From: a bacterium ADurb.Bin212
GTDB taxonomy: Bacteria; Patescibacteriota; UBA1384; XYA2-FULL-43-10
Assembly (NCBI GenBank): GCA_002070055.1
Contig: MWCM01000007.1
Location: 1-58,605 of the forward strand
Direction of reading: 5' to 3'
DNA: 58,605 bases
In this document: positions 53,825-58,605 of the stretch, one piece after another
How positions within the stretch are numbered: position 1 is the first letter of the stretch
Layout of the letters: each line of letters starts with the position of its first letter
Program-made: the position numbers and the translations under genes
The notes under the pieces: model-generated
Told to the model about the DNA's origin: nothing
Database searches by the model: none
Seen by the model: only the letters and a program-made list of their open reading frames with translations

Positions 53825-56776
53825 TTATGCGACGATGCTAACCAACTTCTTTGGCACAACGATAATTTTCTTAGGTTCTTTGTTGTTCAAATGTTCTTTA
53901 ACTTTGTGATCTTGGATGGCGATCTGTTTTAATTCTTCGTCGGAAACATCGTTGCTAACTGATAATTTCTGTCGAACCTTACCGTTGATTTGAACCACGA
54001 TGGTAATTTTTTCTTCAATTAGTTTCTTGCTGTCGTAATTTGGCCAGGCGGCTTTATGCAGCGCATTGTCGTTTCCAAGTTTTTCCCATAATTCATGAGC
54101 AATATGTGGGCAGGCAGGGGAGAGGAGTATCAGATACTGTTCCAAGAGTTTTTTGGATATTTTTTTCTTCGGACTCAAAAGATTATTAAATTCCATCAAT
54201 TTGGCGATATAGGTGTTTAGAGAATAGTTTTCTATGCTTTCGCCGCACTCTTTAATTAATTTATTCAACGGAACAGACAAGTCAGATTCAATTTCTATGT
54301 CTGAGAATTTTTGACAATTTTCCCATACTCTATTTAAAAATCGGTAAACTCCGGAAAGCCCATTGGTGTTCCATGCACTTTCTTGATCGTATGGGCCAAT
54401 GAACATAATATATGCGCGCAGAGAATCTGCTCCATATTCCTTGATAATGTCATCGGGATTAATAACATTGCCTTTAGATTTACTCATCTTTTGATTGTCT
54501 GGGCCTAATATTATTCCGTGTGCAATACGTTTTGCGTAAGGTTCAGCATTCGGCACGACACCTAAATCAAACAAAAACTTATGCCAAAAACGGGAGTAAA
54601 GTAGATGAAGGGTGGTGTGTTCCATACCACCGTTATATAAATCCACTGGCATCCAATATTGTAGTTCTTTTTTGTTTTCGGTAAAGATATTTCCATCTTT
54701 GTGATTCTTGATTCTTGATTCTTGATTTAATGCGTAAGCCAAAAAATACCAAGATGATCCAGCCCAATTAGGCATAGTATCGGTTTCACGTTTTGCTTTT
54801 CCACCACATTTTGGACATTTTACATTGACCCAATCGCTAATAGCTGCCAAGGGTGATTCACCAGTATCAGTGGGTTGGTATTTTTCTACTTCGGGCAAGG
54901 TTAGAGGCAGATCTTTCTCTTCCATCGGTATCGAGCCGCATTTTTCACAATGGATAATGGGAATCGGTTCTCCCCAATAATGTTGACGGCTAAATATCCA
55001 GTCACGAAGTTTATAATTCTTCGCAAAGTCCCCAGCCCCTAGTTCTTTGAGCTTCTCGGTTATCTTTGTAATTGCATCTTCTGATTCTAAACCATCAAAC
55101 TTGTTTGAATTATACAAAACGCCATAATTTGTATACGCGTGTTCTTCGTTAAAATACCTATCCATCCATATTTCATATTCAGCACATTTTACATTTTTGT
55201 CTGCATTTAAATCTTCCCAGTTCATCCAAATGCAATCATGAATAGCTTTTTCGTCTGCTGATGTCTCACATTTTTCTTCGTCAACTAATTCAAAAACCAT
55301 GGCGATAAAATGTGCCTTGCGGTTTACGCCTTTGTGGTTTGCATAAAAATGCGATTCAACTGGTTCTCCAAGTTGACGAATGAATTTGATGTTTTTGTAT
55401 CCGGTTTCTTCTTGGATCTCTCTTCGTGCGGCCTCCACGGGGTCCTCGCCATCGTCAATTCCGCCGGTTACAAAAGTAGTCCACGGAAACTTTTTCCAGT
55501 GTAATGTTAAGACTTTATTGTTTTTTGGATTAACAACAATAGCCTGAATGGCCTGTCGAAAAATGGTTTCTTTGCCCTCAATCGGCGGGTCGTGTTTGTC
55601 AACAACTTTTGGCATTACAACATTAACAATTGGAATGTTATATTTTTTGGCAAACTCGTAATCTCTTTCATCGTGAGCGGGCACGGCCATCACTGCACCT
55701 GTGCCATAATTTGCCAACACATAATCAGCAACATATATATCGATCTCTCTACCATTTATTGGGTTAATTGCGCTAATCCCGTATAACTTTACACCGGTTT
55801 TGTCTTTTTGTATCTCTGTTCGTTCTAAATCAGATTTCTTTTTTGCTTGATTTATATATTCCCGAACTTCATCAAAATTTTGAATATGATGACCAAGTTT
55901 GTTAATTATCGGGTGCTCCGGCGCTACAACCATATAAGTGCAGCCCAAAAGAGTGTCAGCTCGAGTAGTAAATACCTCAATTTGTTCATCTTTTATGGTG
56001 CCGCTTCTTCCGACGACCTTAAATATAATATTTGTGCCAGTAGAACGACCAATCCAATTAACTTGTTGAGTTTTGATTTTGGGAAGGTAATCGACTGTTT
56101 CCAAATCATCAATTAACCTGTCTGCGTAGGCAGTAATTCTAAGCATCCACTGTTTTTGCATCCTTTTTTCTGTTTGTGTTCCACATCGCTCACAATTCCC
56201 TCCAATAACCTCTTCGTTGGCGAGGCCAATTTTACAAGACGGACACCAGTTTATGGGCATTTCTGTCTGATACGCAAGTCTGGGAGTGGTAGTGTCGTTG
56301 TCTGCGACCTCAACAAGCTTTCCATCAACTATGGCATGTTTATAGAACTGCAAAAAAATCCACTGAGTCCATTTGTAATAATCGGGGTCAGTAGTATCCA
56401 CTTCCCGGCCAAAATCAAATGACAAGCCCAAGGCTTTCATTTGATTGCGAAAGTTTTCGATATTTTGTTCGGTGGCCACTTTAGGGTGGATGCCGGTTTT
56501 GATGGCATAATTCTCTGTTGGCAAACCAAAAGCATCCCAGCCTACAGGATAGAGCACGTTATAGCCTTGCATGCGTTTCATTCTGCAGTAAGCATCACTG
56601 GCACCAAAACCCATACAATGCCCAACGTGAAGACCGCTTCCAGAGGGATAGGGAAATTCGATCAAGTTGTAGTGCTTTGGTTTCTGGCTAAAATCTTCGG
56701 CTTTGCCATATCCTTCTTTCTGCCAGAGCTTCTGCCACTTTGCTTCAATTTGTTTGAAATTGTATTTTTTGGCCAT
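53825..56776 (-). CDS. leuS: Leucyl-tRNA synthetase with a Nudix domain inserted in the editing domain
   Basis: 983 aa, one uninterrupted frame. Class I motifs: PYPSGSGLHVGH (HIGH, about 43-53) and KMSKS (763-767). Zinc pairs CPSC/CERC (about 178-198) and CEKC/CPKC. CP1 editing domain with TTRADTLLGCTYMVVAPEH and GAVMAVPAHDERDYEF. Residues about 392-545 are an added Nudix hydrolase domain; its box (438-460) fits GX5EX7REUXEEXGU, with REIQEETGY. The CP1 sequence resumes at EEHAYTNYGVLYNSNKFDGL. LeuRS charges and proofreads tRNA-Leu; the Nudix substrate is unknown. Promoter lies divergent from the next gene. Confidence 0.98.
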   Translation of the reverse strand: MAKKYNFKQIEAKWQKLWQKEGYGKAEDFSQKPKHYNLIEFPYPSGSGLHVGHCMGFGASDAYCRMKRMQGYNVLYPVGWDAFGLPTENYAIKTGIHPKVATEQNIENFRNQMKALGLSFDFGREVDTTDPDYYKWTQWIFLQFYKHAIVDGKLVEVADNDTTTPRLAYQTEMPINWCPSCKIGLANEEVIGGNCERCGTQTEKRMQKQWMLRITAYADRLIDDLETVDYLPKIKTQQVNWIGRSTGTNIIFKVVGRSGTIKDEQIEVFTTRADTLLGCTYMVVAPEHPIINKLGHHIQNFDEVREYINQAKKKSDLERTEIQKDKTGVKLYGISAINPINGREIDIYVADYVLANYGTGAVMAVPAHDERDYEFAKKYNIPIVNVVMPKVVDKHDPPIEGKETIFRQAIQAIVVNPKNNKVLTLHWKKFPWTTFVTGGIDDGEDPVEAARREIQEETGYKNIKFIRQLGEPVESHFYANHKGVNRKAHFIAMVFELVDEEKCETSADEKAIHDCIWMNWEDLNADKNVKCAEYEIWMDRYFNEEHAYTNYGVLYNSNKFDGLESEDAITKITEKLKELGAGDFAKNYKLRDWIFSRQHYWGEPIPIIHCEKCGSIPMEEKDLPLTLPEVEKYQPTDTGESPLAAISDWVNVKCPKCGGKAKRETDTMPNWAGSSWYFLAYALNQESRIKNHKDGNIFTENKKELQYWMPVDLYNGGMEHTTLHLLYSRFWHKFLFDLGVVPNAEPYAKRIAHGIILGPDNQKMSKSKGNVINPDDIIKEYGADSLRAYIMFIGPYDQESAWNTNGLSGVYRFLNRVWENCQKFSDIEIESDLSVPLNKLIKECGESIENYSLNTYIAKLMEFNNLLSPKKKISKKLLEQYLILLSPACPHIAHELWEKLGNDNALHKAAWPNYDSKKLIEEKITIVVQINGKVRQKLSVSNDVSDEELKQIAIQDHKVKEHLNNKEPKKIIVVPKKLVSIVA

Positions 56777-57327: not shown

Positions 57328-57404
57328 GGGCCCGTAGCTCAGTTGGCTAGAGCGCATCGCTGGCAGCGATGAGGTCGTCAGTTCAAGCCTGATCGGGTCC
57401 ACCA
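57328..57404 (+). tRNA. tRNA-Ala (anticodon GGC), probable integration site
   Basis: 77-nt cloverleaf: acceptor GGGCCCG/CGGGTCC (one G:U), anticodon stem CATCG/CGATG with loop CTGGCAG (GGC), encoded CCA. The T loop is TTCAAGC. Its 3' end faces a serine recombinase whose last codons are antisense to the final 27 nt. Confidence 0.97.
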
Positions 57405-58605
57405 TAACGAATTTAGTACATTTGTATCATATATATCAACTGCTCGCTCCGCTCGTTTGTAGAGGGCTGTAAAGGGTTTTTTCAATTCAATTAGCAATTT
57501 GCCATTTAAAATAGTGCGGTTCGAGCCGACGGTTTTCAAAAAATTTCTCATTTCGGGGAAATTTTTTGTTTTAGCGAGATTATCGGCTCTGTTGGCCTCT
57601 ATTATCCAATCCTTTAAGAGTTCGAGCCGATGATTTCCTTTTCGTTCAAAATCGCTTAATTCTTCCTCGATGGTCTTTTTTAGCTCAACTAATTCATTCT
57701 TTTTTATGTGGTATTCTCGAAGCTCAAAAGCTCCCTCTAGATAGCCGTTTGATAATCGGTCAATTTTAACATCTATCTCTTTGAGCTTCTCAGTAAGATT
57801 TTGAACGAAAATTCCCGATGTGTCGTTCTCTTCCTGTTCCCACTCTGCCACCTTGCCCAGAAACTTGTCTCTCCATTCATCGGGAATGGAAACTTTTTGA
57901 CAGTAATCTATTACTTGGTCGGCAAGTTTATCTTGTCGCAAATATTTGAGCTGCTGGCATTTATGAGTTTTGCTCTTTTTAGTACAGCGGTAGTATATGA
58001 ATTCCAATCCGCTTTTCTTAATCTGTCTCTCGCCGGTAATGCTAAATCCGCACTCGCCACAGGTTGCAAAATTTACAAATGGAAAATATTTGTCTTTCAA
58101 TTTCTTTTTGCGAGGTTTACCGTTACTTCGTAGCGCATCTTGAACCTGATCAAAAAGTTTCTTTGAGATCATCGGCTTGTGCGAGCCTTGGATTAGCTCG
58201 CCTTTGTGCTTAAACATGCCATAGTAAAAAGGATTGGATAGTATGGCAGGTATTGAAGATAAGCTATGTGGTTTGCCATACCGGCCAACAAGGCCTTGAG
58301 AAAACATTTCATCTCGGATTTTAGTTAAGGTGTGGTTGCCTTTGGCGAAAAGCTCCAATATTTTTTTCATTTTGTTGAATGTCGCCTTGTCTGGCTCTAT
58401 AGTGCGGATTCTTGGCTCGTTGTAATAACCTAGCGGAGCTTTTGCCGGCATTTCACCGCGCCTTATCTTCTGTCTTATTCCTCGCAGTATGTTTTCTCTT
58501 AAATTGTCGGTATAGTACTTTGCCTGACCAAAGGCAACGCTTAACATAAATTTGCCTTGAGGAGTTGCCTCAAACCAAAATGTCGGGAATTTTAAGCTTT
58601 CAATC
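57378..58605 (-). CDS. Large serine recombinase ending inside tRNA-Ala, 5' end outside window
   Basis: The frame is open to the window edge, 408 codons visible. It begins in the end of the catalytic domain (ATPQGKFMLSVAFGQAKYYTDNL), followed by the recombinase domain (RRGEMPAKAPLGY, NPFYYGMFKHKGELIQGSH), zinc ribbon (CGECGFSITG ... YYRCTKK ... HKC), coiled coil (about residues 250-330 of the visible part) and tail. The final residues TRSGLN are encoded by the complement of the tRNA-Ala 3' end. Sequence differs clearly from the left recombinase, so this is a second, independent element. Confidence 0.93.
   Translation of the reverse strand, partial: IESLKFPTFWFEATPQGKFMLSVAFGQAKYYTDNLRENILRGIRQKIRRGEMPAKAPLGYYNEPRIRTIEPDKATFNKMKKILELFAKGNHTLTKIRDEMFSQGLVGRYGKPHSLSSIPAILSNPFYYGMFKHKGELIQGSHKPMISKKLFDQVQDALRSNGKPRKKKLKDKYFPFVNFATCGECGFSITGERQIKKSGLEFIYYRCTKKSKTHKCQQLKYLRQDKLADQVIDYCQKVSIPDEWRDKFLGKVAEWEQEENDTSGIFVQNLTEKLKEIDVKIDRLSNGYLEGAFELREYHIKKNELVELKKTIEEELSDFERKGNHRLELLKDWIIEANRADNLAKTKNFPEMRNFLKTVGSNRTILNGKLLIELKKPFTALYKRAERAVDIYDTNVLNSLWWTRSGLN

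Follow-up and report, generated by a model that had tools for sequence, protein, structure and literature searches.

The window, a 58,605-nucleotide contig (MWCM01000007.1) of a Patescibacteriota genome, encodes a leucyl-tRNA synthetase (LeuRS) whose insert, as judged from profile matches and a structure model, is a complete Nudix domain lying in frame in a loop of the CP1 editing domain. Across its relatives, the Nudix domain has followed an evolutionary course other than that of the LeuRS body, with repeated gain, loss and replacement of the inserted cassette. The explanation that we favour, with moderate confidence, is that an active Nudix hydrolase occupies this CP1 surface loop as an exchangeable in-frame cassette, with LeuRS serving as its carrier.

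The window LeuRS and its insert

The leuS gene (53825..56776, minus strand, as are all features below) has an open reading frame of 983 codons, and its assignment comes from TIGR00396, AlphaFold and Foldseek as well as from the frame itself. The TIGR00396 model (leuS_bact) scored 949 bits against a cut-off of 548, with the match split into two stretches. The window genome (1.22 Mb) has one family-level LeuRS, and the two profile matches found there are the two halves of leuS. The protein contains the HIGH motif (HVGH, residues 50-53; 56618..56629), TTRADT (270), YGTG (357), HDERD (368) and the KMSKS motif (MSKS, residues 764-767; 54476..54487). On its sequence, the gene product is a bacterial-type LeuRS that has all of its synthetic and editing motifs and is predicted to be active. 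Using phmmer, residues 3-387 aligned with residues 2-362 of Thermus LeuRS and residues 545-761 with residues 374-582, at 34-35% identity, and the structural match extends over the whole length. The AlphaFold2 model of the whole chain, built with 47 homologues, had a pLDDT of 90.8 and a pTM of 0.83, and its best 50 Foldseek matches in the PDB were all LeuRS. It should also be noted that the leucine-specific domain, which precedes KMSKS in the Thermus and E. coli enzymes, is absent from the window LeuRS (near 54476-54520). Upstream of leuS, a gene resembling site-specific serine recombinases (57378-58604), with a recombinase part and a zinc ribbon identified by visual inspection, runs off the contig.

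The CP1 editing domain is divided in two. Its first part (residues 240-387; 55616..56059) carries the T-rich TTRADT motif, the GTG loop and HDERD, and was matched by PF13603 over residues 240-393, corresponding to profile positions 2-146 of 185. The second part, together with the return to the Rossmann body (residues 546-592, YTNYGVLYNS...KLRDW; 55001..55141), lies in the second phmmer stretch, from residue 545. Between them, after the HDERD helix and before the YGVLYNS strand, approximately 157 residues stand in place of an 11-residue loop in Thermus LeuRS; relatives with an empty site also have a short loop. The cassette (residues 388-545; 55142..55615) was delimited by the phmmer gap relative to Thermus and E. 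coli LeuRS, by comparison with empty-site homologues, and by sharp changes in identity near residues 388 and 545. The first-pass annotation had placed it at residues 392-545. The interval given there, 55142-55603, corresponds exactly to those residues, but the whole insert begins at about residue 388.

The Nudix domain proper (residues 407-528; 55193..55558) was identified by Pfam NUDIX (PF00293; 63.4 bits, cut-off 21.1), with a match lying between the two LeuRS parts, and by the structure model. Its Nudix box (GX5EX7REUXEEXGU; GGIDDGEDPVEAARREIQEETGY, residues 438-460; 55397..55465) is complete, with metal glutamates E453, E456 and E457, and is kept in the family; the final U position is Tyr, as in most of the family. 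After the box comes a family motif, H-F-Y-A-x-H-K-x-x-N-R (residues 476-487; 55316..55351), defined from the alignment and residue counts. Aromatic residues are found 17 and 18 positions past the box in 68 and 66, respectively, of 74 embedded copies (F477 and Y478 in the window), and an aromatic after the box is also frequent in free Nudix proteins. Within the whole-chain model the insert had a pLDDT of 92-95. Modelled alone it reached 96.8, with the alpha/beta/alpha order of Nudix proteins, and gave 487 Foldseek matches at E ≤ 0.001; the 50 matches listed were all Nudix proteins. Among its matches are an Enterococcus MutT/Nudix protein, RppH, the Thermus Ap6A hydrolase and the Aquifex and human Ap4A hydrolases, with TM scores mostly of 0.55-0.70.

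The first-pass annotation had read a complete Nudix domain with an intact box, inserted in frame between two intact LeuRS halves. This reading is borne out by the PF00293 match (63 bits) and complete box on the one hand and, on the other, by the 949-bit TIGR00396 match in two stretches with motifs on both sides. The domain search and the AlphaFold model that had been proposed as checks both returned a Nudix domain. Loss of the catalytic glutamates in homologues had been named as grounds for abandoning the idea; the three REUxEE glutamates are retained in 71 of the 74 embedded copies, and the full box in 63.

An artefact or a removable element (misassembly, intein or in-frame intron) is an extremely improbable source of the insert. 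A relative from the same family keeps an insert at the same place with 66% identity and approximately 50 other genomes carry one, which excludes a chance match or an assembly error. The insert recurs in tens of genomes, ends at domain boundaries and has no internal stops. In the model, which is confident, LeuRS strands flank a region that is a Nudix fold, not an intein fold, from end to end, and the Pfam scan returned no intein family. Related inserts are also under purifying selection at the coding level, like the LeuRS body, and the GC3 of the window insert (0.37) is close to that of the body (0.38). The same similarity means that no base-composition trace of recent foreign origin was seen for the window insert.

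Distribution and history of the cassette

We searched 380 Patescibacteria genomes with the insert and then with a 30-sequence profile. Nudix domains were found within frames of 600-1800 amino acids in 52 genomes, of which 50 had the domain in LeuRS, one in ValRS (L050) and one in IleRS (L060). Pfam picked up a further LeuRS with a divergent Nudix domain (L088). Thus, at least 51 of the 380 genomes, about one in eight, encode a LeuRS with a Nudix domain. LeuRS frames lacking the domain, among those listed, are mostly 760-880 amino acids long. Outside the phylum, the same insert occupies the same loop in LeuRS of small-genome Bacilli (9 of the 247 Bacilli sampled) and of one Clostridia metagenome-assembled genome (L124). 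The survey of LeuRS sequences suggested in the first-pass annotation therefore finds such inserts repeatedly. Among 21 relatives of the window genome, 69 Nudix hits were obtained; five were in frames longer than 450 amino acids, all of them LeuRS, and the rest were in short frames. This indicates that internal insertion is not a general habit of Nudix domains. Other Nudix frames of 340-660 amino acids were considered as internal insertions, and those that we read are terminal fusions. Open frames of about 25,000 amino acids in two genomes (G329 and G181) were discarded as products of stretches of N.

The tree of the LeuRS body, built from 788 columns with the insert excluded, groups sequences largely by host family. 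On this tree the presence of Nudix requires 29 changes, at least 24 of which are forced by well-supported branches. Over 2278 pairs, body identity and Nudix identity are poorly correlated (Spearman 0.18), and individual pairs depart in both directions. Within one genus, L031 and L033 have 83% identity over the LeuRS body and 38% over the Nudix domain, and the Nudix domain closest to that of L031 belongs to a Clostridia LeuRS. For L057 and L058, body identity is 0.70 and Nudix identity 0.16; for the window and L011, body identity is 0.49 and Nudix identity 0.63. The Nudix tree groups the window with L010 (same family), L012 (another family of the same class) and L011 (another class) at 99%, while the body tree places L011 with its empty sister L076 and family f53. 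In AU tests, the f53 LeuRS clade was rejected on the Nudix data (p = 1e-41) and the window Nudix clade was rejected on the LeuRS data (p = 4e-5); both groups were picked after the trees had been seen, a caveat that the size of the effect far exceeds. The tree conflict and these tests reject a single insertion inherited vertically. The shift in identity is restricted to residues ~388-545, with sharp edges. In f53, all six LeuRS that we read have a Nudix domain, though it has been exchanged. Part of the patchiness across the tree could result from loss instead of gain.

Low Nudix identity might also be produced by rapid evolution of the insert. In close pairs, however, the insert evolves as slowly as the body or more slowly, so we rejected this explanation. 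For L042 and L044, omega was 0.014 in the insert compared with 0.028 in the LeuRS body, and for L023 and L025 the values were 0.044 and 0.126. Purifying selection on the insert is thus as strong as on the LeuRS body in these two pairs, neither of which includes the window LeuRS.

We looked for signs of how the cassette moves. The insert contains no transposase or recombinase, and no clear target duplication was visible by eye in the flanks of one empty/filled pair. A search for a viral, phage or plasmid carrier of the cassette found none, and PADLOC reported no known defence system above noise. Homologous recombination between conserved leuS flanks would be the simplest route, given that only the loop shows a changed history and that no ends of a mobile element were found.

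The same CP1 loop in relatives is either empty or filled with another enzyme domain. A serine hydrolase (L096) and a methyltransferase (L098) occupy it in members of the same family as the Nudix-bearing L026, a nucleotidyltransferase occupies it in L097, and a HAD phosphatase in L094, whose sister L054 has Nudix plus HAD there. Further LeuRS loops hold serine hydrolase, Ham1, HAD, ASCH, nucleotidyltransferase-like and IS200-like Y1 domains. One LeuRS (L053:677-6061, genome G003) has taken up a HAD, two Ham1, a Nudix and a nucleotidyltransferase-like domain, which together more than double its length, to 1795 amino acids. Similarly, an IleRS of 1544 amino acids (L060:1641-6272, genome G281) carries a serine hydrolase, a Nudix domain of a more distant type and a histidine phosphatase. 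The window Nudix family itself is found at other LeuRS loops (L022, the first copy of L043, and L121) and in the ValRS of L050. Four free Nudix proteins (L101, L126, L129 and L130) also fall within this family in the tree. One of them, a 285-amino-acid protein of Candidatus Pelethosoma (L129:2189-3046), retains a short decayed CP1 (HDERD to HIEKD) together with an intact Nudix box, and the same genome encodes a normal LeuRS of 811 amino acids elsewhere.

Several other observations were made at these loci. There is a second LeuRS hotspot at the entry to CP1 (window residue ~264), seen in L079-L087, L089, L092, L095 and L117. It is mostly filled by a serine hydrolase of about 180 amino acids (PF06821; Pfam was run on L079, L085 and L086). 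IS200-like Y1 transposase domains (PF01797) lie in frame in the same CP1-entry loop in L091:159-3347 and L116:33-3044. At L101:2643-3092 (genome G280), 4 bases separate the end of a different, free Nudix gene from the leuS gene that follows it, and a free representative of the LeuRS-Nudix family is located ~2.4 kb upstream of that leuS gene.

Possible roles of the inserted enzyme

In the arrangement that we favour, the Nudix domain would fold by itself, with ends near enough to span the CP1 loop. Its own active site would hydrolyse a small soluble nucleotide, with LeuRS functioning as usual. LeuRS, and at times ValRS or IleRS, would provide an abundant chassis for the enzyme. From its box and modelled fold, the Nudix domain is probably catalytically active on small nucleotides.

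The identity of the substrate can be suggested with less confidence. Leucyl-adenylate does not contain the pyrophosphate bond that Nudix enzymes cleave and is therefore an unlikely substrate. As tentative candidates we propose dinucleoside polyphosphates, Ap4A among them, or other nucleotides that are capped or contain a pyrophosphate link. Dinucleoside polyphosphates are favoured for three reasons: they are produced by synthetases and broken down by Nudix enzymes, hydrolases of this kind are among the nearest folds, and the aromatic residue after the box, though also frequent in free Nudix proteins, may correspond to the X-loop tyrosine motif of ApnA hydrolases (reviewed in PMC5389931). Ap4A, which arises in large part from synthetases and is degraded by Nudix enzymes (PMC10148737), is a possible substrate. 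None of the NCBIfam substrate-level models reached its cut-off with the insert; the dihydroneopterin-triphosphatase, RppH, NudE and MutT models matched weakly, and the insert is not assigned to the asymmetric ApnA hydrolases (Ap4A type) at this level.

The same chemistry could be tied to aminoacylation, with the Nudix domain destroying in cis the Ap4A or other dinucleoside polyphosphate that LeuRS forms from leucyl-AMP and ATP. We find this rather doubtful. Internal Nudix insertions were met only in class Ia synthetases (all five long-frame hits among the 69 in 21 relatives being LeuRS), Nudix is the dominant filler of the CP1 loop, and family members from different LeuRS sites and from ValRS nest with one another; Ap4A and Ap6A hydrolases are among the closest folds, and Ap4A comes in large part from synthetases (PMC10148737). 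However, the loop also accepts a serine hydrolase and a methyltransferase, which have no such role, and the majority of Patescibacteria LeuRS have no Nudix domain. Moreover, the family has free members, one of them (L129) with a decayed CP1, and unrelated Nudix types replace it in sister species. The stronger proposal of the first-pass annotation, a dedicated link from leucylation to a LeuRS-made nucleotide or to signalling, finds no support in that form: the module has its own tree, moves between lineages, and sits at other sites, in ValRS, in IleRS (as a more distant Nudix type) or alone, in addition to which the loop takes unrelated enzymes. At the other extreme, small common enzyme genes might land in permissive synthetase loops and persist as ordinary enzymes, with no advantage from their location. 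The many cassette types in several LeuRS loops, IS200-like Y1 transposase domains (L091 and L116) included, and the patchy distribution are consistent with this possibility. We nevertheless consider it somewhat doubtful, as Nudix domains within large proteins were confined to LeuRS in the sampled relatives, other Nudix fusions examined being terminal, and as f53 keeps a Nudix domain in 6 of 6 LeuRS read and yet exchanges it.

It is quite unlikely that the insert has no catalytic role and instead binds nucleotides, or acts as a structural element, to adjust CP1 editing or the handling of tRNA, with its box kept for binding only. The insertion does persist where the box has decayed (GQ...AE or SE, with the first Glu and Arg lost), namely in L024, L040, the N-terminal copy of L043, L045 and L048, with the free L101 sharing these losses; this partly lost box argues for a non-catalytic role at least in that subgroup. 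In addition, the I4ae insertion of archaeal/eukaryotic LeuRS reaches the editing pocket via Lys464 (PMC7229842), so CP1 insertions can touch editing. Against this stand the retention of all three metal glutamates in 71 of the 74 embedded copies, and of the full box in 63, and the interchange of Nudix types and unrelated enzymes within LeuRS lineages, to which a tuned interface would not readily adapt. Returning to the exchangeable cassette, we also offer, as a speculation that is unlikely to hold, that small-genome bacteria use the CP1 loop, along with a few further loops in LeuRS and related class Ia synthetases, as a site of cassette exchange. Enzymes, mostly Nudix but also serine hydrolase, Ham1, HAD, methyltransferase and nucleotidyltransferase domains, would be swapped there horizontally and in frame within an essential gene under diversifying pressure, for example the detoxification of nucleotide-like or aminoacyl-like inhibitors, and the synthetase would be a vehicle for defence or detoxifying enzymes.

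Relation to known systems

No published description of a Nudix domain in LeuRS or other synthetases was found in a search of open-licence full texts; an unremarked database annotation of Nudix-in-LeuRS may well exist already. That synthetases, and their CP1 domains especially, acquire inserted domains is known; the variant that seems new is an enzyme cassette that can be exchanged horizontally within an essential synthetase. Synthetases are textbook conserved proteins with slow domain gain, and here species of the same genus differ in the enzyme carried by a protein that is otherwise almost unchanged. This is modular engineering of a protein by nature, at a permissive site that stays the same, and it points to positions where class Ia synthetases can accommodate an entire enzyme. 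It also opens to experiment the question of whether enzymes of translation keep nucleotide by-products, Ap4A for example, in check in cis. For Patescibacteria it poses a puzzle, in that their genomes are tiny and yet an essential gene is lengthened by a fifth and, in the extremes, more than doubled.

The window LeuRS shares all catalytic and editing motifs with bacterial LeuRS (TIGR00396; Thermus 1h3n, E. coli 4aq7). Compared with the Thermus enzyme, its CP1 loop holds an enzyme domain of 158 residues in place of 11 residues, and it has no leucine-specific domain before KMSKS (Thermus residues 583-637 are unmatched). The insert shares its fold, its Nudix box and the aromatic after the box with Nudix hydrolases of the RppH, ApnA hydrolase and MutT kind (2azw, 4s2w, 1vc8 and 3i7u); it differs from these in being encoded inside another enzyme, in having its own motif (FYAxHKxxNR) and in scoring below substrate-level cut-offs. 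A class Ia synthetase with a foreign enzyme domain is also represented by the IleRS with an N-acetyltransferase domain (NCBIfam NF040702, ileS_w_GNAT), known here by the name of the model, from which the window differs both in the synthetase and in the inserted enzyme. Finally, the CP1 insertions I1ae-I4ae of archaeal/eukaryotic LeuRS are likewise peripheral on CP1, and one lies beside the editing pocket. Unlike the window cassette, they are lineage-wide in archaeal/eukaryotic LeuRS, and no enzyme role is described for them there (PMC7229842).
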